From contig NZ_REFC01000014.1 of the NCBI RefSeq assembly GCF_003688405.1, forward strand, positions 62,001 through 126,000: DNA of 64,000 nucleotides, read 5' to 3'. How positions within the stretch are numbered: position 1 is the first letter of the stretch; every line of letters begins with the position of its first letter. The notes below the pieces were generated by a model. It saw nothing but the letters and a program-made list of their open reading frames with translations. It searched no databases and was not told where the DNA came from. A program made the translations under genes and the position numbers. Positions 16,735 through 38,501 of this stretch are shown here, one piece after another. Source of the stretch: Ulvibacter antarcticus (GTDB taxonomy: Bacteria; Bacteroidota; Bacteroidia; Flavobacteriales; Flavobacteriaceae).

Positions 16735-17256
16735 TTAATTGTAATAAATTATAAATGAAAAGGATAAGCCCGTAATGTCAAATCCAGACACGTTGGTTAT
16801 ATGAAGGACTAACTGGCCATTTTGAGGTTCTGGTAAAATAGTAAAGTCATATCCCCATGCTGGACCAGCTGGCAATGCACCAATAACGTTAACTTCAACC
16901 GTTGAGTTTGCCGTCATTGCAGGATCTGGGATAGGAATCGCATAATAGAATCCTGATGTAATAGTGCCCAAAGGGCCAGCGTAAAACTTCGCAATAGAAG
17001 TAATCTGACTCGAATTAATAAATCCAGGTCCCCAAACTGGCGGTACGCCGGTTCCTTGTGATAATAAGATTTGGTCTACTCCACCAACGGCATTTCCGGG
17101 TCTAAAATCTCCGTCGATTCTAACATTTCCGTTAACGTGTAACATTTCAGTTGGATTGGTAGTATTTACACCAACTTGAGCTTCTATTGATGTTGAAAAT
17201 AACAGTAATGCAAAGAGTACTGTTAAAGAAAACATAAGTGAGGTATTTTTCTTCAT
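16735..17256 (-). CDS. exported protein with GVNTTNP N-terminal module
   Basis: A 173-residue protein from ATG 17256, chosen because it gives a good signal peptide (KKNTSLMFSLTVLFALLLFS...EAQ). An earlier start at 17331 adds an unlikely prefix. After the signal comes QVGVNTTNPTEMLHVNGNVRIDG, the same module type as in the genes at 17448-26658. The rest is a small beta-rich domain ending FSFIIYYN. It is the shortest and most divergent of the group. No T9SS sorting domain; the surface route is not known. Confidence 0.75.
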   Translation of the reverse strand: MKKNTSLMFSLTVLFALLLFSTSIEAQVGVNTTNPTEMLHVNGNVRIDGDFRPGNAVGGVDQILLSQGTGVPPVWGPGFINSSQITSIAKFYAGPLGTITSGFYYAIPIPDPAMTANSTVEVNVIGALPAGPAWGYDFTILPEPQNGQLVLHITNVSGFDITGLSFSFIIYYN

Positions 17257-17447
17257 GATAACAATTATTTGAATAATTGTAGGAAAGTTACTTAAAATGA
17301 GATATGTAGTTTCATTTTTTCGATTAAGCACAGATAAAACTATACAAAGCGTAACGAATGCTTTATAGGAATAATAATATCACTTTAAATGCGTTAAAAT
17401 TGTAAGAATTTTGTAAGAAAAACCCTTCAGATTGAGATTTTTGGGAA

Positions 17448-18896
17448 TTATTGATTCTTTTTGAATCCGGATGGAAATAAGTAGGTGCCTTTTAAATGTT
17501 CTTCCTTTTCAACTTCTACTTTTACTCTATTTTTTTGAGCATAGGCATCATTTCTAATCCCTGTGACTTGCCAGCTAATTTTCACGTTAGGTACTTCAGA
17601 TTTAATTACAAAAGTTCCGTCGGTAATCTCTTCAGAAATCATAACTTTTGAAAAAGATCCAATGGAAGTAAGTTGGTATCTGAAATCAACATTTAAAGCA
17701 TTGAAATATTTTGGCATTTTTACAATAGCCGTTCCGGAAGCATCGGTTATAACGTTTCCATTGTAGATATTCATCATGTCTGGACTTTCGACAAAGCTGT
17801 GGTATAGATATTTATTTTCGGGATCCAAAGGATGATCAATTTTAAAAGTACCTCCTGCTTTAGAAATAGTGCCTGTTACAGATAAATTTCCGTCTACTTT
17901 TAAATTGTTAACCACTTTTACATCTCCTTGATTATCTAAGATCATGGCTATAGCACTGGGATTTGAACTAGCCGATCCATTTCCGGAGTAGAAATTGAAA
18001 GTACCATTTCCTTGGTTATGACCAATATCAAGAATATTCGATTTGTTATTATGTCTAAAAAATCCTTTCAAAAATGTGTTTCCATCCCATAATTCGTAAG
18101 AGGTATGAGGGATATTATAAATTGAACTAGTATTATCAAGTCTAAGGGTAGTAGCCTTATTATGTTGATCATTTGCAATGTGAAAATCTGATAAAGGCTT
18201 TACGTCTCCACTTTTCCCTGCCTTAATGTAACCATTATTTGCAATCATTAATCCGGCATCGTTAGCTCCTTTGCCTGTGCCAATATAAAAATGTGACTCA
18301 TTGGGAAGGGCTGCGTTTTTCACGTTAATATTCCATATTTCTGATTTTGCTGAAATCTGAATATTTTCTGAAACTGAGTCATAACGATTATTACCTCCAC
18401 CTATTTCTATGTCTCCAGCAACCTGAAGAAGATTTCCAGAAGTTAAAGAATTAGGACTTGAAATTCCAACAAGAAGTTGTCCGGAAGAATTTATCCGCAT
18501 TGCTTCTTCGTTATGTGTTTTAAATATTAGATCGCTTTCATCAGTAGTACCTAGAAACTTGACTTCATCCTGAGCATTACCTGTAGTTTTCCAGTCATTA
18601 TCTAAAGAAATCCATTGAACACCTGACCAGAAGTAAAATCCCTTGCCAAGTTCAGTATTGGTATTATAAACCAATAGACCTTCTGGGCTTCCTCCAGTAA
18701 TAGGTTCAATGGAAGTTGAGGTAATTAAACTTATTCTAGGAACTAATAACCCCTTATCATTGCTATTTATATCTAGTATGCTAGCAGCATCTGGGAATTC
18801 TGTATTAATACCTATTTGGGCTTTAATACTGCTATGAGAAAACAGTAAGAAAGACGTAAGTAAAAGCTGAATTAATACTTTGGTAGGTGATTTCAT
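17448..18896 (-). CDS. tail-fibre-like exported protein (GINTEFP family)
   Basis: A 482-residue protein. Signal peptide about 1-26, then QIGINTEFPDAASILDINS and the GLLVPRISL line of the N-terminal module. The middle (about 110-340) has repeated short beta elements like phage tail fibres (MRINSSGQLLVGI, LLQVAGDIEIGG, VVNNLKVDGNLSVTGTI). The end (about 345-470) starts FKIDHPLDPENKYLYHSFVE and continues MNIYNGNVITDASGTAIVKM, a domain I have met in Bacteroidetes and phage-like fibre proteins. No sorting domain. It has its own upstream motif at 18941-18972. Confidence 0.8.
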   Translation of the reverse strand: MKSPTKVLIQLLLTSFLLFSHSSIKAQIGINTEFPDAASILDINSNDKGLLVPRISLITSTSIEPITGGSPEGLLVYNTNTELGKGFYFWSGVQWISLDNDWKTTGNAQDEVKFLGTTDESDLIFKTHNEEAMRINSSGQLLVGISSPNSLTSGNLLQVAGDIEIGGGNNRYDSVSENIQISAKSEIWNINVKNAALPNESHFYIGTGKGANDAGLMIANNGYIKAGKSGDVKPLSDFHIANDQHNKATTLRLDNTSSIYNIPHTSYELWDGNTFLKGFFRHNNKSNILDIGHNQGNGTFNFYSGNGSASSNPSAIAMILDNQGDVKVVNNLKVDGNLSVTGTISKAGGTFKIDHPLDPENKYLYHSFVESPDMMNIYNGNVITDASGTAIVKMPKYFNALNVDFRYQLTSIGSFSKVMISEEITDGTFVIKSEVPNVKISWQVTGIRNDAYAQKNRVKVEVEKEEHLKGTYLFPSGFKKNQ

Positions 18897-18940
18897 TGAA
18901 AAGGGGCTAGTTCAAATTTATCAATGTAAAAATAGAGATT

Positions 18941-18972
18941 TTATCGTTTAAATTCAAAAATAATCGATGAAA
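18941..18972 (-). promoter_or_regulatory. TTCATCGAT-type upstream motif, copy A
   Basis: Minus strand: TTTCATCGAT, then TATTTTTG, two bases, TTTAAACG. It starts 45 bases before ATG 18896. It aligns without gaps to copies at 25064-25097 and 26701-26733. TATTTTTG fits the TAnnTTTG -7 element. Confidence 0.65.
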
Positions 18973-19116
18973 TGCTAGTTGTTTACATGTAAATAGAATA
19001 TTCCTACAAAATATAGCATCGAATCGCGTTGTTTAATATTTGTAAAATTGGGGTTCTATACAAATCGTCATTAACTTACATTCAGACCAGAGATAAAACT
19101 GAAAAATTATCTAAAT

Positions 19117-19152
19117 AAAAAAATGCCTTCAGATTTCTCTAAAGGCATTTTA
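19117..19152 (-). terminator. rho-independent terminator
   Basis: Minus strand AAATGCCTTTAGAGA, loop, TCTGAAGGCATTT followed by a T run. It ends the operon whose last gene is at 19174. Confidence 0.85.
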
Positions 19153-19173
19153 TAAATGTAATGGTTAATTTTA

Positions 19174-22100
19174 CTATTCTTTTATAATCTGTCTATTTAC
19201 AGTTCCATTTGAAGTTTGTAAAGACATAAAATAAACCGCAGGATTAAATCCAGAAATGTTTATTTCATCAAAATCATTTGCTTGATTTTGTTGTTTGTTG
19301 AAATTAGTATTAGTTGCTTTTATTACTTTTTCTAATAGAATTCTTCCTTGTGCATCATAAATTGTAACCTTTTCCAAAGTACTGTCTGGCGATTGTATGT
19401 TTACAATACCTGTCGTTGGATTTGGAAATACAACTAAACTATCTACTACACTATCTGTATCTCCCGAAAGTAATGTCTGGAAACGAAGTGTAAATCTGTT
19501 ATTATAGGTTCCTGCTTCAGAAGTAAACTCATAATTAGCGTTACTTAAATTTGTGACAGTGTTCGCTACATGATCTTCAAGAAAGACGCTTACAGCTTCA
19601 AGATTCACACCTCTAAGATCGGAAATAGATATAACGTAAGCTAATCCTCCGTCTACATCTATTAGCGTCGAGAATCCCATTGGAATTCTCATTCCAGCGT
19701 CGAATGCTTCTCTTCCCTGGATTCCTAAATGCTGACTTCCATCATCAAGATGAGAATACAAAGAAACAACTGTACCTAACTTTTCTGTGTCAAATCCTTG
19801 ATCAAGATCGGCAGTTGCACTTTCCAAAAATCCTATTCCGGCAGTACTTCCCATATGATATTGACCTTCACGGACGGTTAACCATATTAAGTCTTTTTCG
19901 GTAGTTTTTCTAAGCGTTGTATTGCCACTTGTTAATCGTATTGCATTATTAAAAGTAACATCTCCTGCTGCATTAGCCTTAATTCCGAAGCCCTGACCTG
20001 TTGAAATAATACCATTAGGAGTCGTTCCTCCAGTAGCCGAAGGAATTCCCATCGTACCATTGTAAGTAGAAATATCTTCCATGTTGAAGTTTTCACTTTG
20101 AGGACCTGGTATTCCAGTACCCGGAGTCGTGTTGTGTTCCCAGAAATATACTTCATCTAAAATAGCATTATTTTCGATAAGCATGGCAGCATCTATAGCG
20201 GAAGCATATGGATTGGAAAGAACATTTGCACTTGATTCTTTACTTGTATTATATCCAGCTGCATAAGTGATCTCTCCACTGTTAAGGGTACCTTGATTGT
20301 ATTCGTAATTGTAAGTCCCATTTTGTGTGTACGATGGACGTACAAGATATCCTTCACTAGGCGCTAAAGTTCCACTAAAGTTTGTCCAGTCATTTTGTTC
20401 CTGATCGTAAAAATTAACTCCAACAATTGGAGGTGTTCCACTATAAGGTTGAAAATTCGCTGTTGTATGATTTAAAACCTGATAAGCTGGCAATCCATCT
20501 GCAAATGCTGATATTCCATCGGAAGTCATTGGACTACCTAATAATAGGAAATCACGAGCATTCATGGCTGGTGTTGTTAGTTTTACATTGATTGAACCAT
20601 TATTTGTAACAATGGCATCATCGTTTTCCTGTACAAAGTTAGCTTGATGTTCTACGATTAATTGAGACCCGGCATCAACTATAACGTTACCGCCAACCTT
20701 CATATATTCTCCGGAATCTACTGTAACAATTGCATTGTTTTTAATTTCACAAGAACAAGCTTCAATGCTTGACTTTCCAAGGTCTGAAGTTTTATAGTTT
20801 GCATTAAAAACTACGTTCTTACCGGCATCTGGTTGCCCATTACTCCAAAAAGCACTAAAAGTAGTGGTTTCTGCCACTACAGTTACAATAGCCGTAGTGG
20901 TTGAGACGTTTTCATTTCCATCGTAAATAGAAAGTGTCACAACATTTGTTCCAACATCTGCACAAGTAAAGGTGTCTTGGTCTAGTCTTTTTGCCCATAC
21001 GACAACGTTGTCGGTTGAACCATTATCTATTTGATCTGGTGTGATTTTAACTGTACCATCTACACCTAGTGAAACAGAAATGTTCTGTGCAATAGCAACT
21101 GGATTAACCGCATCGTAGTTAGGATCTTTTACTATAAAGACTCCTCCGTCTCCGTTCGTATTGGCATTTCCAAAGCCAGAAATAACAATGTTTCCACTTT
21201 TAAAATATGGGTATACATTCCAAGTTCCGTGAAAAGCAGCGGAATTGTTAGGTACAAAAGTATCAAAATATTTTATTTCAGACATGGAAGCAGATGCGGA
21301 AGAATTATAGATCGAGGTAATATCGAACATTCTCATTCCTGCAGAGTAATTGGCCAAATAGAATCGATTTCCTTTTACATATCCATTATGATCAATTGCA
21401 CCAACAGTAGATGAAGTATGTGTAAAATGTAATTTAGGGTCTTCTAAATCATTAAAATCGAAAATAAAGGTTCTTGTTCCACCTCCAATATTTTCTTCAT
21501 CAACTTCATCACCAAGTATAAAGAAACGTTTGTCGAATGTAAACCAACCTTGATGGGTATAATGAACGTTCGTGTAAGATATAGTAGATAAATTCACAGG
21601 GTTATTTTTATCGGTGACATCTACAATAACCACTTCGTCTTCATTTGCACCAATCATAATTTCTCTTCCATGGTATCTTGTATCGGGTCCGTCATATATT
21701 ACTACCTGGGCGTCATGAAAATAATCACTGCTTCCATACTCACCTACAATTGTAGGATTCTTAGGGTCTGGAAAAAGTTTTACAAAAATAGGACCTCCAT
21801 TATTGTTTGAGGCTCTGTTTACTCCTACAACATAGCCATATCCAGAATCTTCGTTGATTACTATATTATGAGCTCGGTTGTTTTGAGAACCACCATCTCC
21901 AAAAGATAAAAACCCATCTTCTGAAAAGGTTGCCACTGGTGATCCAGTCAATCCTCGTAAATTGGTTAAGTCAAAAATTTGCAGTCCGTCGTTTGTTACC
22001 TCACTTACAATATAAGCATGGTTATTATACACTTTTACATCCCGCCATAAATTAGAGCCTCCTGAATGAGAATTAAGTCTCCCTAAGTAAACAGGTCCGC

Positions 22101-22368
22101 CTGAAGCCGATATATTTACAAAGGCCGTTCCATTATCTAAAGCAACAATTGCGTATTCATCGCCATTGCCATCTACATCTGTCCAGCCCCATGAATCCTG
22201 AGCTTCGTCTGCGCCCATAGCGCTGGCAGAAATATATTTTACAAGGTCTATTCCGTTACATGGGTAATCATTTTGATTTCCTGGGTTGTTAATCTTACCG
22301 CCGCTACAAGGTTGTGCGATTGCCGAAAAAAGCGGCAGTATAAGTAAGCTAAATAAAATTTTTTTCAT
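19174..22368 (-). CDS. choice-of-anchor B family protein with T9SS sorting domain
   Basis: A 1064-residue protein. Signal peptide 1-18. The choice-of-anchor B beta-propeller-like region covers about 25-420 (DSWGWTDVDGNGDEYAIVAL, HSGGSNLWRDVKVYNNHAYI, HDAQVVIYDGPD, DHNGYVKGNRFYLANYSAG). A HYR-like segment spans about 425-505 (VTLSIYDGNENVSTTTAIVTV), then a beta-solenoid-like patch, and a region common in T9SS cargo (VLSNPYASAIDAAMLI...). The type A sorting domain is about 985-1064 (FPNPTTGIVNIQ, IYDAQGRILLEK, RQIIKE). It is the last gene of a putative four-gene operon beginning at 25023, whose other members carry the GIxTxxP module. Likely a cell-surface protein. Confidence 0.88.
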   Translation of the reverse strand: MKKILFSLLILPLFSAIAQPCSGGKINNPGNQNDYPCNGIDLVKYISASAMGADEAQDSWGWTDVDGNGDEYAIVALDNGTAFVNISASGGPVYLGRLNSHSGGSNLWRDVKVYNNHAYIVSEVTNDGLQIFDLTNLRGLTGSPVATFSEDGFLSFGDGGSQNNRAHNIVINEDSGYGYVVGVNRASNNNGGPIFVKLFPDPKNPTIVGEYGSSDYFHDAQVVIYDGPDTRYHGREIMIGANEDEVVIVDVTDKNNPVNLSTISYTNVHYTHQGWFTFDKRFFILGDEVDEENIGGGTRTFIFDFNDLEDPKLHFTHTSSTVGAIDHNGYVKGNRFYLANYSAGMRMFDITSIYNSSASASMSEIKYFDTFVPNNSAAFHGTWNVYPYFKSGNIVISGFGNANTNGDGGVFIVKDPNYDAVNPVAIAQNISVSLGVDGTVKITPDQIDNGSTDNVVVWAKRLDQDTFTCADVGTNVVTLSIYDGNENVSTTTAIVTVVAETTTFSAFWSNGQPDAGKNVVFNANYKTSDLGKSSIEACSCEIKNNAIVTVDSGEYMKVGGNVIVDAGSQLIVEHQANFVQENDDAIVTNNGSINVKLTTPAMNARDFLLLGSPMTSDGISAFADGLPAYQVLNHTTANFQPYSGTPPIVGVNFYDQEQNDWTNFSGTLAPSEGYLVRPSYTQNGTYNYEYNQGTLNSGEITYAAGYNTSKESSANVLSNPYASAIDAAMLIENNAILDEVYFWEHNTTPGTGIPGPQSENFNMEDISTYNGTMGIPSATGGTTPNGIISTGQGFGIKANAAGDVTFNNAIRLTSGNTTLRKTTEKDLIWLTVREGQYHMGSTAGIGFLESATADLDQGFDTEKLGTVVSLYSHLDDGSQHLGIQGREAFDAGMRIPMGFSTLIDVDGGLAYVISISDLRGVNLEAVSVFLEDHVANTVTNLSNANYEFTSEAGTYNNRFTLRFQTLLSGDTDSVVDSLVVFPNPTTGIVNIQSPDSTLEKVTIYDAQGRILLEKVIKATNTNFNKQQNQANDFDEINISGFNPAVYFMSLQTSNGTVNRQIIKE

Positions 22369-22395
22369 AATAATTACGGGGTTTTGTTAATTGTT

Positions 22396-23277
22396 TTATT
22401 TTACAAATTCGAATTCTACACTACAAGGAATAGAGTGCCCAATGTGTCCTTGTCCATTTCCACTATCACCGTTATTTACGAAATATGCGTGTCCGGTATT
22501 AATACAGTTGCTTAAATTAAAAGTATATGTATTATTCGCCAACAAGTATTGGTAATATAATAATGATGCGAAATGTGCGGTCTTATCATCTACAAGGGTT
22601 GGCGACTCGATAGTATTGTCTGAGGCATATGAATGTGTATATAACCAGCCTTCACTGTAATCATAATATGTGCTTGCAGGATCGATATCAACGCCTGTTC
22701 CAGAGAGTTTAAAAAAGAAAGACCCTTCAGAGGTTGCTAAAGAAATTTTGTCAGAACTAGTAAATGGATCTATTTCTCCGGCTGCAAAATTTGTCTTCAC
22801 TTCAATTCTGTAAATACCTGAATATTTGGGTGTAAATGTTTGACTATTGAGCCCGGCTACGTCGTCTGAATCTGTTGGCTCCGGATTACCATGACTCTCT
22901 CTAATGGTTGTTCGTTGACATCCACTCGTTTGTTCGTATTTTTTACGATCTGTTAGCGTAAATTGGGGCAGCCAAATTGCTCCACTCCAAGCATATACTC
23001 CTGGGGACACATCATTAGCTCCGTTAGTGGTTAAGTTGGTATTAAACACAACGGTCCCTGACACAATACTACCGCCATTGGGATTTGTAACCGGTGCAGA
23101 AACATTTGAAGCCGTTAATGCAATCCGTGGATACACTAAACCTTGAGTTGATGACTCTAAGTCAAGAGCTCCTTCCGGTGTTGATGTCCCGATACCGATT
23201 TGTGCGTAATTGATATATGTAAAAAGAGTGCAAACTAGCAAAGTCACACTTATTTTTTTAAAGTTCAACATAATCAT
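22396..23277 (-). CDS. GIGTSTP-family exported protein, paralog 1
   Basis: A 293-residue protein. Signal peptide about 1-25, then QIGIGTSTPEGALDLESSTQ and GLVYPRIALTA, the PVTNPNGGSIVSGTVVFNT line and PGVYAWSGAIWLPQF. The C-terminal domain begins LNSQTFTPKYSGIYRIEVKT and ends GHIGHSIPCSVEFEF. The same two domains occur in the next two genes and at 25195. The spacings (23 bases upstream, 27 downstream) suggest one transcript. The C-terminal half could be a C1q-like beta sandwich; this is only a guess from the FTPxYSGxYKLEV strand. Confidence 0.8.
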   Translation of the reverse strand: MIMLNFKKISVTLLVCTLFTYINYAQIGIGTSTPEGALDLESSTQGLVYPRIALTASNVSAPVTNPNGGSIVSGTVVFNTNLTTNGANDVSPGVYAWSGAIWLPQFTLTDRKKYEQTSGCQRTTIRESHGNPEPTDSDDVAGLNSQTFTPKYSGIYRIEVKTNFAAGEIDPFTSSDKISLATSEGSFFFKLSGTGVDIDPASTYYDYSEGWLYTHSYASDNTIESPTLVDDKTAHFASLLYYQYLLANNTYTFNLSNCINTGHAYFVNNGDSGNGQGHIGHSIPCSVEFEFVK

Positions 23278-23300
23278 TTTTCTTTTGGTTAATTAAGCTT

Positions 23301-24164
23301 CTATTGTTGTCCCAGATAATTAAATTCAAGGGAACATTTCATATTCCCATTAATCGTTATGTAGCCTCTTCCGTCTCCAGCTGGTACAATAGAGATATCT
23401 CCATTACCTTCAAATCCATCTGCATCATCTTGATTAAATGTTAATACAAATGTATAGTTGGTTCCAGCCGTTAAGACTTCTTCAATTTCAATAGAATTTT
23501 GATTAACGTTATTTTCATAACGTCTTAAAGTACCGCCCTTAAATAGTTTATCATTGTTACTACCTGCAAATGAATTTAATCTGTAAGTATGCGTAACGCT
23601 ATTAAATGTGAAATTGAACTCTCCACCTTGTTTCGCAAAATTCACAAACTGAGGCGATGATGTTGCGTTGGTTCTACCTGCTCCGAAATGAGTAGTAAGG
23701 GTTAGTTTATACTTGCCATTAAACTTTGGGGTGAATGTGTTTGCATTAAAAGTGATGACTTGATTTCCTAAAACGGGATTTATAATGTCTGAAGACCCCG
23801 TTCTTCGAGAGGTCGATTGTAAAAATAGTTTATTGTCTTTTTTATCCCCTTGTGGAATCCATTGTGTTCCTGACCAGAAATAAAACCCAGGGTCTAAACT
23901 ATATTCTCCATTATTTACTGTACTCATATTGTAAACAGTAGTACCGGCAACCAGAGGATCCCCTTTAGGATTGATTACAGTTGGGGTATTCACATCAACC
24001 AGGGTAACAGTTGGGAATATTACTCCTTGTGTAGTCGAATTAATTTCAAGTGCTCCATTTGGAGTGGAGGTGTTTATACCTACTTGAGCATTTGCAGTCG
24101 AAACAAAGATTAAACTCACTATTAATACTAGTCTAGAAAGATATTTGTTTTGCATTTTTTTCAT
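23301..24164 (-). CDS. GINTSTP-family exported protein, paralog 2
   Basis: A 287-residue protein from ATG 24164, which gives the signal peptide KKMQNKYLSRLVLIVSLIFV...ANAQ. A GTG at 24179 overlapping the previous stop is possible. N-terminal module: VGINTSTPNGALEINSTTQG, then VYNMSTVNNGEYSLDPGFYF. C-terminal domain: NTFTPKFNGKYKLTLTTHFG to MKCSLEFNYLG. It is the most divergent of the four in the C-terminal half, lacking the GHIG line (GRGYITINGNMKC instead). Confidence 0.8.
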   Translation of the reverse strand: MKKMQNKYLSRLVLIVSLIFVSTANAQVGINTSTPNGALEINSTTQGVIFPTVTLVDVNTPTVINPKGDPLVAGTTVYNMSTVNNGEYSLDPGFYFWSGTQWIPQGDKKDNKLFLQSTSRRTGSSDIINPVLGNQVITFNANTFTPKFNGKYKLTLTTHFGAGRTNATSSPQFVNFAKQGGEFNFTFNSVTHTYRLNSFAGSNNDKLFKGGTLRRYENNVNQNSIEIEEVLTAGTNYTFVLTFNQDDADGFEGNGDISIVPAGDGRGYITINGNMKCSLEFNYLGQQ

Positions 24165-24171
24165 TTTAGAA

Positions 24172-25023
24172 TTATTCACCTACATAAGTAATTTCAACGG
24201 TACAAGGAATATCGTATCCTATATGCCCTCTTCCTGAACTACTATTACCATCATTAAGAAATTCTGGAGCATCATGTTGATCGAAAGACAAAGTAAAGGA
24301 CTTAGAACTGCCGGCTATACATGGCAAATAAATAACCGTAGAAAATTCCTGCCAGATAGCAAAGTAATTTGTTGCACTTTCGCTTGGTTCGTAAGCAGTT
24401 GAATAACTATTCACAGGAATATCATAATTGGTACCCGCGAGATTTAATCTGAATGTTCCGCTGGCACGCGCAATATTTAAGTATCCGTTTGATCTAGTAC
24501 TTGGATTTCCTCCTGAAATTTTCGGAACTTTCGCATTACCACCAGCGAAGTTTACATTTACAGATACTTTGTAAAATCCCGTATAATCGGGTGTGAAAGT
24601 TTTACTTGAAAGACCGGTAACATTTGTAAAACTCGAAGAGGCAGAAGTTAACATGTCTAAAGAGCTTTGCTCATAAAGCAAGCGTTGTTTTTTTTCGAAT
24701 TGTGATTGCCATTGCGTACCACTCCATACATACATGCCCGGGAAAACGTCATTAGCTCCTGTTGAGGTAGTGCTGGTGTTGTAAACTGTTGTGCCTTGTG
24801 GGATGTTTCCTCCTTGGGGATTAACAATCGGTGCTTGTAATACTGTTGAGGTAAGCACAACTCTCGGTAATACAAAACCTGAGTTTGCGCTATTAATATC
24901 TAGCACACCATTTGGCGTTGTCGTATTTATTCCTACACTCTGTGCGCTTCCCACAAAGCAGATAAATAATATGGGAACTATAAGAAATAGTCTTGACTGA
25001 TTTAAAGTAAGTTTTACTAACAT
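24172..25023 (-). CDS. GINTTTP-family exported protein, paralog 3
   Basis: A 283-residue protein from ATG 25023. The longer frame to 25116 runs through the upstream motif and is rejected. Signal peptide about 1-29 (LFLIVPILFICFVGSAQ), module VGINTTTPNGVLDINSANSG, then FPGMYVWSGTQWQSQF. The C-terminal domain runs from SSKTFTPDYTGFYKVSVNVN to GHIGYDIPCTVEITYVG. It is the first gene of the operon 25023 to 19174 and overlaps or nearly touches the next start. Confidence 0.82.
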   Translation of the reverse strand: MLVKLTLNQSRLFLIVPILFICFVGSAQSVGINTTTPNGVLDINSANSGFVLPRVVLTSTVLQAPIVNPQGGNIPQGTTVYNTSTTSTGANDVFPGMYVWSGTQWQSQFEKKQRLLYEQSSLDMLTSASSSFTNVTGLSSKTFTPDYTGFYKVSVNVNFAGGNAKVPKISGGNPSTRSNGYLNIARASGTFRLNLAGTNYDIPVNSYSTAYEPSESATNYFAIWQEFSTVIYLPCIAGSSKSFTLSFDQHDAPEFLNDGNSSSGRGHIGYDIPCTVEITYVGE

Positions 25024-25063
25024 AGAAATTGGGGGTTTCTGATATCTAGCACGAATGTAGGAA

Positions 25064-25097
25064 AAATATACGCTTAAATGCAAATAAAATCGATGAA
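25064..25097 (-). promoter_or_regulatory. TTCATCGAT-type upstream motif, copy C
   Basis: Minus strand: TTTCATCGAT, then TTTATTTG, two bases, TTTAAGCG, ending about 45 bases before ATG 25023. Same layout as copies A and B. Confidence 0.65.
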
Positions 25098-25194
25098 ACA
25101 CATAATACTTTAACATTTGTAAGAATAAACGTGCTTAAGAAATGCTTTTACGATTTAATAACCGTCGACTTTTGCTTATTCTCTTCTTAGTTGA

Positions 25195-26658
25195 CTAATT
25201 ATCACCTAAGAAGGTAAATTCAGTATAACATGGAATATCTACACCCACATGTCCCATACCTGTACCACTATTTCCATTGTCTACAAATCCAGGAGAATCG
25301 AATTGGTCAAATGCTAAATTAAAATTGTAGGTGGTGCCTCCAACAACTTGTAGATATAGGATCAAAGATGATTGATACCATATAGCGTAATAATTCGTAC
25401 CTCCACTACCACCAATCAATTTGTTGTGAACAGAGTATGAATTTGAATATATCATATGATCATTTCCATCAAAGGTAAATTTGAATTCACCTTCTTGAGA
25501 GGCAATATTTATTTTGTCTTTATTATCACTAGCTGGTTCCATATAACCACCTCCAAAATTTGTAGTTACTTCTAGTTTATAAGTTCCGGAATACTTTGCT
25601 GTGAAACTTTGATTTGTTAAGCCAGGAATATCTTGCCAGCCCGAAGTACTAATAGTTCTAAAACCTAATGGAGGAGCAGCATCCTGTTGGTAAACCTTAG
25701 AATGCATTTTTGGAAATTGAGCGATCCAATTACTTCCGTCCCACATATAAAAACCTTTATAAACATCGTTTGCGCCTGTCGCCGTATTATTTGTGTTGTA
25801 TACCATTAAACCTTCGGCCGGTGATGTGATTGGAGAAGATACGTTTGTTGCAGTAAGTCCAACGCGATTCATAAGAAAGCCTTTATCGGTTGCTGTCATT
25901 TCCATTTGGGAACTAGGATCGGGTGTTCCGGTCCCTAGACCTATATTATCATGTTCGCCATCGACAAACAAAGTATTTTCATTATTGCTAGTTTCCACTC
26001 TTAAATTTATATTTTCTCCTTCAGGATTAATGGAGAGTTCAATGTCTGATCCGCCGCTGGTATTTGCACTGGCGTTAAAAAAGACAGATCCATTGATCGC
26101 CATTCCCATTTTTTGATGCCCTGATTTCCAAAAACCCATAGTCTTGTCTTGATTCCATGAATAAAATGGCGCATTAGGAGATCCGTTTCCCATTGCTAGT
26201 ACTTGATAGCCGTTTGCAACCTTAAACCTTTCGATATGGTGAGTTCTAAACATTAAGGACTGGGCATCATTAGTTCCTAAATAATCTGAGTCTTCATCTG
26301 TATTCCAATTACCAGATAGATCCCATTTATCATTATTTTGCATTATATCCATCCATTCTGTACCACTCCAAAAGTGATAACCCGGAATTACTGCTGTACC
26401 ACCCGAGCCGGCCGTAGCTGTATTATATACAAGTAATCCAACTGCTGGCGCAGGAGTAATGGGACTTCCAATATTGCTGGCCGATAGCGCAACTTGAGGG
26501 ATTAAAATTCCTTTATTACCTTCTCCATTGTCAATATGTAGCATACTTGATGGGTCGGGCGTTAATGTACCAATCCCAACCTGAGCATTCAAATTGGTAA
26601 TTGTAGTGATCATTAAAATAAGGTAGGAAACTCTTCGTATACGGAGATAAGTTTTCAT
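25195..26658 (-). CDS. two-module GIGTLTP-family exported protein
   Basis: A 487-residue protein with two N-terminal-type modules: QVGIGTLTPDPSSMLHIDNG (about 26-45) and GLGTGTPDPSSQMEMTATDK (about 240-260). Each is followed by a VYNT...GYHFWSG or GFYMWDG line. The C-terminal domain (about 355-487) goes from TNQSFTAKYSGTYKLEVTTN to GHVGVDIPCYTEFTFLG and matches paralogs 1-3. It has its own leader (motif at 26701-26733) and is separated from paralog 3 by about 170 bases. The architecture looks like a fusion of two family members. Confidence 0.82.
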   Translation of the reverse strand: MKTYLRIRRVSYLILMITTITNLNAQVGIGTLTPDPSSMLHIDNGEGNKGILIPQVALSASNIGSPITPAPAVGLLVYNTATAGSGGTAVIPGYHFWSGTEWMDIMQNNDKWDLSGNWNTDEDSDYLGTNDAQSLMFRTHHIERFKVANGYQVLAMGNGSPNAPFYSWNQDKTMGFWKSGHQKMGMAINGSVFFNASANTSGGSDIELSINPEGENINLRVETSNNENTLFVDGEHDNIGLGTGTPDPSSQMEMTATDKGFLMNRVGLTATNVSSPITSPAEGLMVYNTNNTATGANDVYKGFYMWDGSNWIAQFPKMHSKVYQQDAAPPLGFRTISTSGWQDIPGLTNQSFTAKYSGTYKLEVTTNFGGGYMEPASDNKDKINIASQEGEFKFTFDGNDHMIYSNSYSVHNKLIGGSGGTNYYAIWYQSSLILYLQVVGGTTYNFNLAFDQFDSPGFVDNGNSGTGMGHVGVDIPCYTEFTFLGDN

Positions 26659-26700
26659 TATTGAGGAGATTTGGGGGGTTTGCTATGACAATTTTAGTTA

Positions 26701-26733
26701 TAAATACGATAAAAAACAAATATTATCGATGAA
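26701..26733 (-). promoter_or_regulatory. TTCATCGAT-type upstream motif, copy B
   Basis: Minus strand: GTTCATCGAT, then AATATTTG, two bases, TTTTATCG, starting about 47 bases before ATG 26658. Ungapped match to copies A and C. Confidence 0.65.
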
Positions 26734-26949
26734 CGGTAGTTTATTGGAAAAAACAAACTGTTTAAATGTTAAAATTTTGAAGATTGAGTGATGTTTTTCT
26801 TTAGAGATTTCTTAAAAATTAATACTTTGATTCATAGATTTTTACGATATTTTCAATGATTTTTGCGAAAGAAAGGGAATCCTCTAATTTGCTCTGTATA
26901 GTTTCGCAATCGAAACTTAGAATCTTGTTTTGCTTTAAATAATTTAAAA

Positions 26950-37709: not shown

Positions 37710-38342
37710 TTATCCAAATTGAAACATTCTGGACTGATGGATAAGATCTGCCAGATTATCTACTTTCAATTTTTTCAACAAACGCGTTTTGTAAGTACTT
37801 ACCGTCTTTTCGTTGATGTTTAATGCGTTTGCAATATCCTTATTTCGTTTACCGCTTGATAGTAAATTTAAAACTTCCACTTCTCTGGAAGATAATTTTT
37901 TATAACGGCTAATTGCACTGCTCTCACCCACATTTCTACTGGTGAATGTAGAAGTCAATTCTTCATTGAGGAAGATACCTCCTTTAGCGATTTGCTTTAA
38001 TGCTTTTAAGAATAATTTTGTTGATGCGGTTTTTGGAACATATCCAGCAGCTCCCGATTTAATAGATCGAAGCGCATAAATTTCTTCAGGATGTGTTGAG
38101 TAGATTAAAACTCTCATTTCAGGAAATTCGGTTTTAATGCTTCGAAGTGCATTAATTCCGTTTATGTCCGGCATATCGATTTCCATAATTAAGATATCCG
38201 GTTTGGTTTCGCGTAGATTTTTATATAATTCACCACCACTACTCGCTTTTCCTACTATCTCAAAATTCTTTGATTTTTTGAGCATACAGGAAATCCCTTT
38301 TCTTGTCACCGGATGATGATCTGCAATAAAAATTGATTTCAT
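37710..38342 (-). CDS. LuxR/NarL-type response regulator
   Basis: A 210-residue regulator from ATG 38342. Receiver domain about 1-118 with MKSIFIADHH, the phospho-acceptor D (LIMEIDMP) and AAGYVPKTAS near its end. The HTH domain is about 145-208 (YKKLSSREVEVLNLLSSGKR-NKDIANALNINEKTVSTYKT). The acidic pocket has AD near the N-terminus, as in other NarL-type receivers. No histidine kinase lies nearby. Target genes are unknown. Confidence 0.9.
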   Translation of the reverse strand: MKSIFIADHHPVTRKGISCMLKKSKNFEIVGKASSGGELYKNLRETKPDILIMEIDMPDINGINALRSIKTEFPEMRVLIYSTHPEEIYALRSIKSGAAGYVPKTASTKLFLKALKQIAKGGIFLNEELTSTFTSRNVGESSAISRYKKLSSREVEVLNLLSSGKRNKDIANALNINEKTVSTYKTRLLKKLKVDNLADLIHQSRMFQFG

Positions 38343-38501
38343 TCTTTTTAGTCTTTTTCTTACATACAATCATCATTAAAACGATGAATGAATCGCAAGT
38401 ATGAGGTTTTGTAATATTTATACTACAAATCAAAACTAATTAAAAGTTTAATCTCTTGAATTTCTTTTCGTTCAAACTCACGAAAACTCGATAAAATCCG
38501 C

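Follow-up and report, generated by a model that had tools for sequence, protein, structure and literature searches.

A tandem direct repeat, probably of LytTR type, upstream of exported surface-protein genes in Ulvibacter antarcticus, and its candidate regulator

The repeat, its recurrence and its promoter spacing

We focus here on a short DNA element in the leaders of three genes for exported proteins in Ulvibacter antarcticus, all within one 64,000-nucleotide stretch of the genome (the window; contig NZ_REFC01000014.1, positions 62,001 to 126,000, or G000:C4:62001-126000), which has a G+C content of 37% in a genome of 3.84 Mb. An earlier note, made from the letters of the window, had reported an ungapped motif shared by these leaders, and a 27-mer of the form TTCATCGAT-N4-TTTG-N2-TTTNANCG is indeed found in all three, on the minus strand, as are the genes that follow. 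Site 1 (TTCATCGATTATTTTTGAATTTAAACG, 18945-18971; box 1 at about 18964-18975, box 2 at about 18944-18955) precedes a gene at 17448-18896 for an exported protein of 482 amino acids (aa) with a GIxTxxPxxxLDI (hereafter GIxTxxP) module. Site 2 (TTCATCGATTTTATTTGCATTTAAGCG, 25071-25097; boxes at about 25090-25101 and 25070-25081) precedes the gene of a 283-aa exported GIxTxxP protein at 24172-25023, for which the start at 25023 is plausible, though the longest open reading frame (ORF) begins at 25116. Site 3 (TTCATCGATAATATTTGTTTTTTATCG, 26707-26733; boxes at about 26726-26737 and 26706-26717) precedes the gene of a 487-aa exported GIxTxxP protein at 25195-26658. The 3' end of the 27-mer lies 48, 47 and 48 bases from the ATG of the genes starting at 18896, 25023 and 26658, so that the close spacing described earlier holds, although its exact range of 43-47 bases does not. 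Within the motif the three leaders agree at 21-23 of 27 positions (78-85%), as against 15-20 of 55 in the ungapped upstream flanks and 14-18 of 44 downstream (27-41%), which is near background; similarity running evenly beyond the motif, the sign of recent copying named in the earlier note, is thus not seen.

The site recurs well beyond the window. A slightly longer pattern, allowing up to three mismatches, matches seven times in the U. antarcticus genome and never in its reversed form, and a looser pattern with at most two mismatches has matches in 39 of 60 genomes, our own included; the proposed search of the whole genome and its relatives has thus borne the motif out. Seventy sites, 62 of them from relatives, were collected from stretches picked by eye among the looser-pattern matches; this pick, which mostly left out matches that looked coding or lay outside the family, underlies all statistics on 70 sites below. 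A profile was trained on 60 of the 62 relatives' sites and on none from U. antarcticus (odd-looking sites in L051 and L073 were left out), and a weight matrix on 58, the regulator-promoter type being excluded as well. In the U. antarcticus genome the relatives-only profile ranks sites 1, 3 and 2 first, third and fourth (E-values, E, of 1.6e-7, 1.6e-6 and 2.3e-6). It yields at least 13 sites there at E<=0.01 and a match in at least 198 of 249 family genomes, both lower bounds because the best 150 of 5578 first-look candidates were scored in our own genome and 27 per genome across the family. The small surface-assembly regulon proposed earlier therefore stands as a regulon of exported surface proteins and falls as something small and local. 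In other genera the same motif precedes unrelated genes, and we regard it as very likely that the site and its regulon are real.

In the window itself the relatives' weight matrix scores the three sites at 37.5, 37.5 and 34.6, and among 127,930 positions a score of 10 or more is reached once outside them, the next value being 15.1. By matrix scores the earlier statement that no other gene in the window carries the motif is thus upheld, save for this weak candidate at 38469-38495 (minus strand), whose downstream neighbour, about 100 nt away, is a gene for a REC+GerE response regulator (37710-38369).

The element is a tandem direct repeat. Its columns correlate at 0.86 when shifted by 20 positions, compared with at most 0.13 at any other shift from 14 to 26 and 0.49 for the best inverted alignment, so that the unit is (T)RYATTTNATCGA, present twice in the same direction and 20 bp apart. 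Columns -3 to 0, which the search pattern left free, read R-Y-A-T (66 of 70 sites have R at -3, and as many have Y at -2), and a similar G-Y-A-T stands before the second TTNANCG. The repeat unit may be written (T)GCATTTNATCGA, with a period of 20 and sometimes 21 bp, and pairs of the half-site word GCATTTNATCG occur at a period of 20-21: six pairs at 21 bp in our own R1 loci and five in relatives' loci, with none at 19 or 22 in either, the peak at 20 being in part a product of selection.

The TTTG-ending octamer, suggested earlier as a possible -7 element, does not hold up in that role, as its TTTG belongs to the second repeat copy and the -7 boxes are found 10 or 20 bp downstream. The Bacteroidetes promoter consensus is TAnnTTTG at -7 and TTTG at -33 (PMC2483708). 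Among 109 sites, perfect TAnnTTTG boxes start 9-11 nt past the site in 14 cases where 0.29 are expected, and 19-21 nt past it in eight where 0.27 are expected (in the first sample of 70 sites, 12 at 9-12 nt versus 0.24 expected); at the remaining sites the box is imperfect or absent at those distances. The offset is 10-11 bp in the window and 20-21 bp elsewhere. The candidate boxes in the window, again on the minus strand, are TATTTTTA (18927-18934, 10 nt past the 27-mer) in the leader of 18896, TACATTCG (25052-25059, 11 nt, read directly) in that of 25023, and TAAAATTG (26689-26696, 10 nt) in that of 26658, each a TAnnTTTG with one mismatch. The start site of the first leader is ambiguous because a perfect box, TAAATTTG, also stands at +24 (18913-18920, minus strand). 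By arithmetic, the expected place of the -33 element in promoters of the +10 class is the one taken by the TTTG of box 2. Thus, where the earlier note saw in TTCATCGAT a regulator or sigma site, a regulator site upstream of the promoter core is retained and a sigma site is not. An ATG ORF of at least 60 aa starts 40-260 nt downstream of 62 of 104 sites, compared with 35 in the mirror image; the orientation of the site relative to the gene is a mere tendency. As for the leaders, 22 of 45 belonging to the regulon have a CCC within the 45 nt that precede the ATG, compared with 59 of 286 ORFs in the same sequences, a control that may include regulon genes and spurious ORFs.

Genes behind the sites

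Exported proteins dominate the 13 sites listed in our own genome at E<=0.01: five, of which the window has three and contig C6 two, precede genes for exported GIxTxxP proteins and five precede other proteins with export or lipoprotein signals, judged by eye, while one precedes a multi-PAS histidine-kinase-like gene, one a SpoIIAA-like gene, and one has no downstream ORF. Weaker own-genome matches precede five more GIxTxxP genes. A search with the module finds 25 such genes at E<1e-5, and 10 of the 25 have a site scoring at least 10 within 400 nt upstream of their start; an additional one, L209, has a period-21 pair recognized by eye. In the GIxTxxP protein L050, C1q is found above the cut-off (E 4.5e-6) and BclA_C below it (E 2.2e-5), and in L046 both lie below (E about 2e-4). 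The multi-PAS kinase-like gene (760 aa; L044:2355-4634, minus strand) is preceded by a site, at G000:C1:615742-615773, in which TTAATCGAT occurs twice without mismatch, and its product is a candidate partner kinase for the orphan regulator discussed below.

In relatives, the 39 downstream proteins scanned contain Laminin_G_3 in eight, MAM in four, GEVED, Por_Secre_tail and Sigma70 region 2 in three each, and Response_reg + LytTR in two; 18 of the 70 sites have no downstream ORF call, and six doubtful ones among the relatives' 45 ORFs were left out. Housekeeping genes, for example release factor 3 and Sua5, once each, also follow sites, so that part of the sites could be fortuitous or act on an adjacent gene. 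In three genera (L018, L066, which shares its site with L022, and L079) the gene behind the site encodes a small conserved protein, about 42 aa long, with LTKKIFML at its C terminus.

In five genera the tandem site is directly followed by a stretch of 144-149 nt that is about 80-85% identical, with an invariant core and a terminal hairpin plus T run, and is thus a candidate conserved RNA (L055:1044-1191; L059:4875-5018, minus strand; L067:1045-1193; L080:1062-1206; L099:1025-1173). In its hairpin two pairs change on both sides. No Rfam family reaches its gathering score for this candidate, the best weak match having E 0.032 and 20.8 bits, where 114 are required. No copy was noticed in the own-genome loci examined, and no search of the whole genome was made for one.

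In the window, the gene at 24172-25023 heads a tightly packed run in which the following genes overlap or lie within 30 bp of one another, and which from this packing is probably one operon. It would take in two further GIxTxxP genes without sites of their own (23301-24179 and 22396-23277) and probably end with a gene at 19174-22368, again without its own site and 27 bp after the preceding one, for a choice-of-anchor-B protein with a type IX secretion system (T9SS) type A sorting domain (TIGR04312, E 2.5e-129; TIGR04183, E 2.1e-10). A GIxTxxP-like gene at 16735-17331 lies downstream of the gene behind site 1 and has no site either; all of these are on the minus strand. The window target proteins are paralogs, with 35-40% identity to the first one compared. 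A Pfam scan of the window GIxTxxP proteins gives no family above cut-off, a related-locus search with the 487-aa protein finds no relative, and the predicted structure of the 24172-25023 protein is poor (mean pLDDT, the predicted local distance difference test, of 51).

A candidate regulator and competing explanations

The architecture of the site points to a class of protein. Escherichia coli YpdB is described as binding a direct repeat of GGCATTTCAT, and LytTR sites generally as pairs of repeats, each of 9-11 nt, separated by 11-13 nt (PMC4847170). The present site follows this spacing, with a 9-nt word and 11 nt (period 20) or 12 nt (period 21) in between. Of all 262,144 possible 9-mers, the one scoring highest in the half-site matrix is GCATTTCAT, which lies within the YpdB tandem word, and the YpdB 10-mer is beaten by 428 of 200,000 of its own shuffles. 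It is likely that the motif is one of LytTR-type recognition.

Our candidate regulator is a REC-LytTR gene outside the window (G000:C2:533084-533794; Pfam Response_reg and LytTR). It is a lone gene with the rpsF operon and priA as neighbours and no partner kinase gene beside it in our own genome; many response regulators are orphans, and an adjoining kinase is no obligatory feature. In the relatives' loci L074 and L085, the sites start 76 nt before a REC+LytTR response-regulator gene, and the U. antarcticus ortholog is 68% identical to this type of regulator, whose closest named carriers are Ulvibacter, Aureisphaera, Marinirhabdus and Aequorivita. At the regulator's own promoter, 32 of 63 named loci have a tandem site that scores above the level reached by 99% of shuffles (17 of 80 loci could not be placed by the start-site rule), chiefly on the Winogradskyella-Bizionia-Algibacter side, our own clade having mostly one half-site. 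The FhRhHRS motif of the LytTR domain is present in L111 as FLRIHKS, K replacing R, where AgrA has N according to the relevant part of PMC4227749. The regulator, at 80% identity, also appears in L254; the contig bears the title Candidatus Rokubacteria, and the assembly would seem to be mislabelled or contaminated.

Regulator and motif occur together across the family. Among 36 relatives, 27 have the regulator and nine do not; the best profile E is 5.9e-4 or lower in all 27 carriers, 12 of which contributed no training site, and is 0.007 or worse, or there is no match, in all nine others. Pattern counts that involve no training average 4.4 with and 0.78 without the regulator (p 5.8e-4), as against 0.67 and 0.89 for the reversed control (p 0.44). 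Across 249 family genomes, our own included, 188 have the regulator and 187 of these show the motif at E<=0.01, as do 11 of the 61 without it (Fisher 1.9e-40, phi 0.868, kinship ignored), and phi is 0.866 in the 235 genomes without any training site. At E<=0.001 the numbers are 181 of 188 and 5 of 61, the five including G219, which was counted as regulator-free and in which a fragment 94% identical to the regulator lies at the end of a contig. For the closest own paralog, L109, the motif is present in 90 of 98 genomes with it and 108 of 151 without (phi 0.246). Genome size alone is insufficient to explain the co-occurrence, because in the 13 regulator-free genomes listed that are at least 2.5 Mb and at least 90% complete (G219 aside), three have a match at E<=0.01 and one at E<=0.001.

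We consider it probable, at roughly 0.73, that this regulator acts through the repeat. Two (T)GCATTTNATCGA copies of like orientation, with a period of 20 (or 21) bp, would form a tandem LytTR-type operator. As this spacing equals about two helical turns, two regulator protomers would be held on the same face of the helix, at a position that overlaps the -33 region of a standard Bacteroidetes promoter (TAnnTTTG) or immediately precedes it. Once phosphorylated by a kinase, the regulator would control the exported surface-protein regulon and, in many relatives, also its own gene. Activation appears a slightly better guess than repression, which is also allowed because box 2 lies over the expected -33 element in promoters of the +10 class, those of the window included.

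Several observations weigh against this assignment. First of all, our own regulator promoter has one half-site, GCAGTTCATCG, 10 nt before a TATAATTG box, and no tandem. Second, ten genomes without a detected ortholog have a motif match (among them G271, which is 99% complete and reaches E 2.7e-5), and G079, with the regulator, gives no match; beyond the family, a 50% relative without any motif match is found in G037 and G052, and a match without a close ortholog in G039 and G048; the counts across genomes treat relatives as independent, and the co-occurrence comparison covered two of the 11 LytTR proteins of our own genome. Third, TT, A and part of the remaining word were preset by the window-derived search pattern, and none of the AgrA-, VirR- or LRS-like words stands out in the half-site matrix. 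The own LytTR protein most like YpdB is L107, the regulator's LytTR domain sharing 23 of 102 positions with YpdB; the word match thus supports the regulator class more than this particular protein. Fourth, 14 of the 25 GIxTxxP genes have no tandem site at score 10 (one more is unplaced), and every window -7 box at +10/+11 carries its one mismatch. Finally, the +10 class departs from the position typical of LytTR sites, upstream of -35/-33; we do not take that position as obligatory, because AgrA binding downstream of the bsaA promoter has been described (PMC4227749, in the part concerned with bsaA).

Some of these points, namely the partial coverage of the LytTR proteins, the closer likeness of L107 to YpdB and the ten ortholog-free genomes, would also suit a different reader of the repeat, whether another own LytTR paralog or a protein of another class, such as a LacI-type regulator acting on the ATCGAT palindrome within box 1. 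We take this core to resemble a LacI-type operator; the repeat structure lends it no support, the conserved unit being a direct repeat and no palindrome. A different reader would further have to accommodate a phi of 0.87 for the proposed regulator versus 0.25 for the closest own paralog, as well as the tandem sites at the former's promoter in half of the named loci, and we judge it unlikely.

A promoter of an extracytoplasmic function (ECF) sigma factor, with TTCATCGAT as -35 and CGTAT/CGATA as -10, is more improbable still. The 16 nt between TTCATCGAT and CG would fit it, ECF sigma genes lie behind some sites, and a study of Flavobacterium psychrophilum describes, before T9SS genes, a promoter class whose -10 region contains a CGT box and which is attributed to an ECF sigma factor (PMC9723704). 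For the base after CG, however, the 70 sites collected here have A (43), G (14) or T (13), so that CGT is in the minority, and a period of 21 is also seen. ECF sigma promoters are expected to have two unlike elements and no housekeeping -7 box at a fixed distance. Here the supposed -35 and -10 are copies of each other, and housekeeping-type TAnnTTTG boxes stand at +10 or +20. Finally, that the three leaders are recent duplicates and the motif residual paralogy has next to no probability, since for all the 35-40% identity of the downstream proteins and a p of about 0.04 in two of six gapped local flank comparisons against shuffles (the other four being above), the ungapped flanks fall far below the motif and the motif also precedes unrelated genes in other genera.

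If the proposed regulator does act through the repeat, a bolder view may be considered, which we hold to be doubtful: one orphan LytTR regulator would serve most sampled Flavobacteriaceae as a master switch of the cell surface, the sign of control being set by one helical turn, such that +20 promoters, with no -33 at the usual place, would be activated and +10 promoters, with -33 covered by box 2, repressed or competed. Were this true, the regulon would comprise exported proteins resembling adhesins or C1q/BclA, genes for ECF sigma factors and a PAS kinase-like protein, and, in certain genera, also a conserved small RNA. As there are two preferred promoter positions one helical turn apart, activation and repression are directly testable against each other. 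To our knowledge, little is known about the transcriptional control of exported surface proteins in Flavobacteriaceae, and searches of the open-licence PubMed Central papers, a body of text that leaves out supplements and most subscription journals, brought up no account of either site or regulon, so that the regulon is apparently undescribed so far. The gain is a concrete site, a candidate regulator with family-wide support, and a list of targets obtainable from genome sequences.

Comparison with known LytTR systems

Among described systems, the F. psychrophilum sigma motifs SM1-SM6 share the TAnnTTTG -7 box with the present promoters; as that study presents them, they are sigma-type motifs, unlike the present repeat, and the terms 'LytTR' and 'direct repeat' are absent from the main text examined (PMC9723704). 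The VirR boxes and the sites of the LytTR regulatory systems HdrR and BrsR are likewise tandem direct repeats about two turns apart (PMC2838878, PMC6193735), where VirR also shows helical phasing with the promoter and HdrR autoregulation. Their boxes lie upstream of -35, whereas in the present +10 class box 2 lies over the expected -33 and spacer, and the word differs.

There is also a likeness to YpdB (PyrR, b2381) and its site at the yhjX promoter, with which the present system shares a REC+LytTR-type regulator, a tandem direct repeat and a core word. The printed YpdB oligonucleotide has a period of 21 bp (PMC4847170), whereas the present repeat mostly has 20 bp, and YpdB has one described target and a partner kinase, as compared with many candidate targets and an orphan gene here. 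The present half-site also differs in its conserved CGA after the word, and the regulator has no special protein similarity to YpdB. This set of likenesses nevertheless suggests that one LytTR word is apparently used in both E. coli and Bacteroidota.

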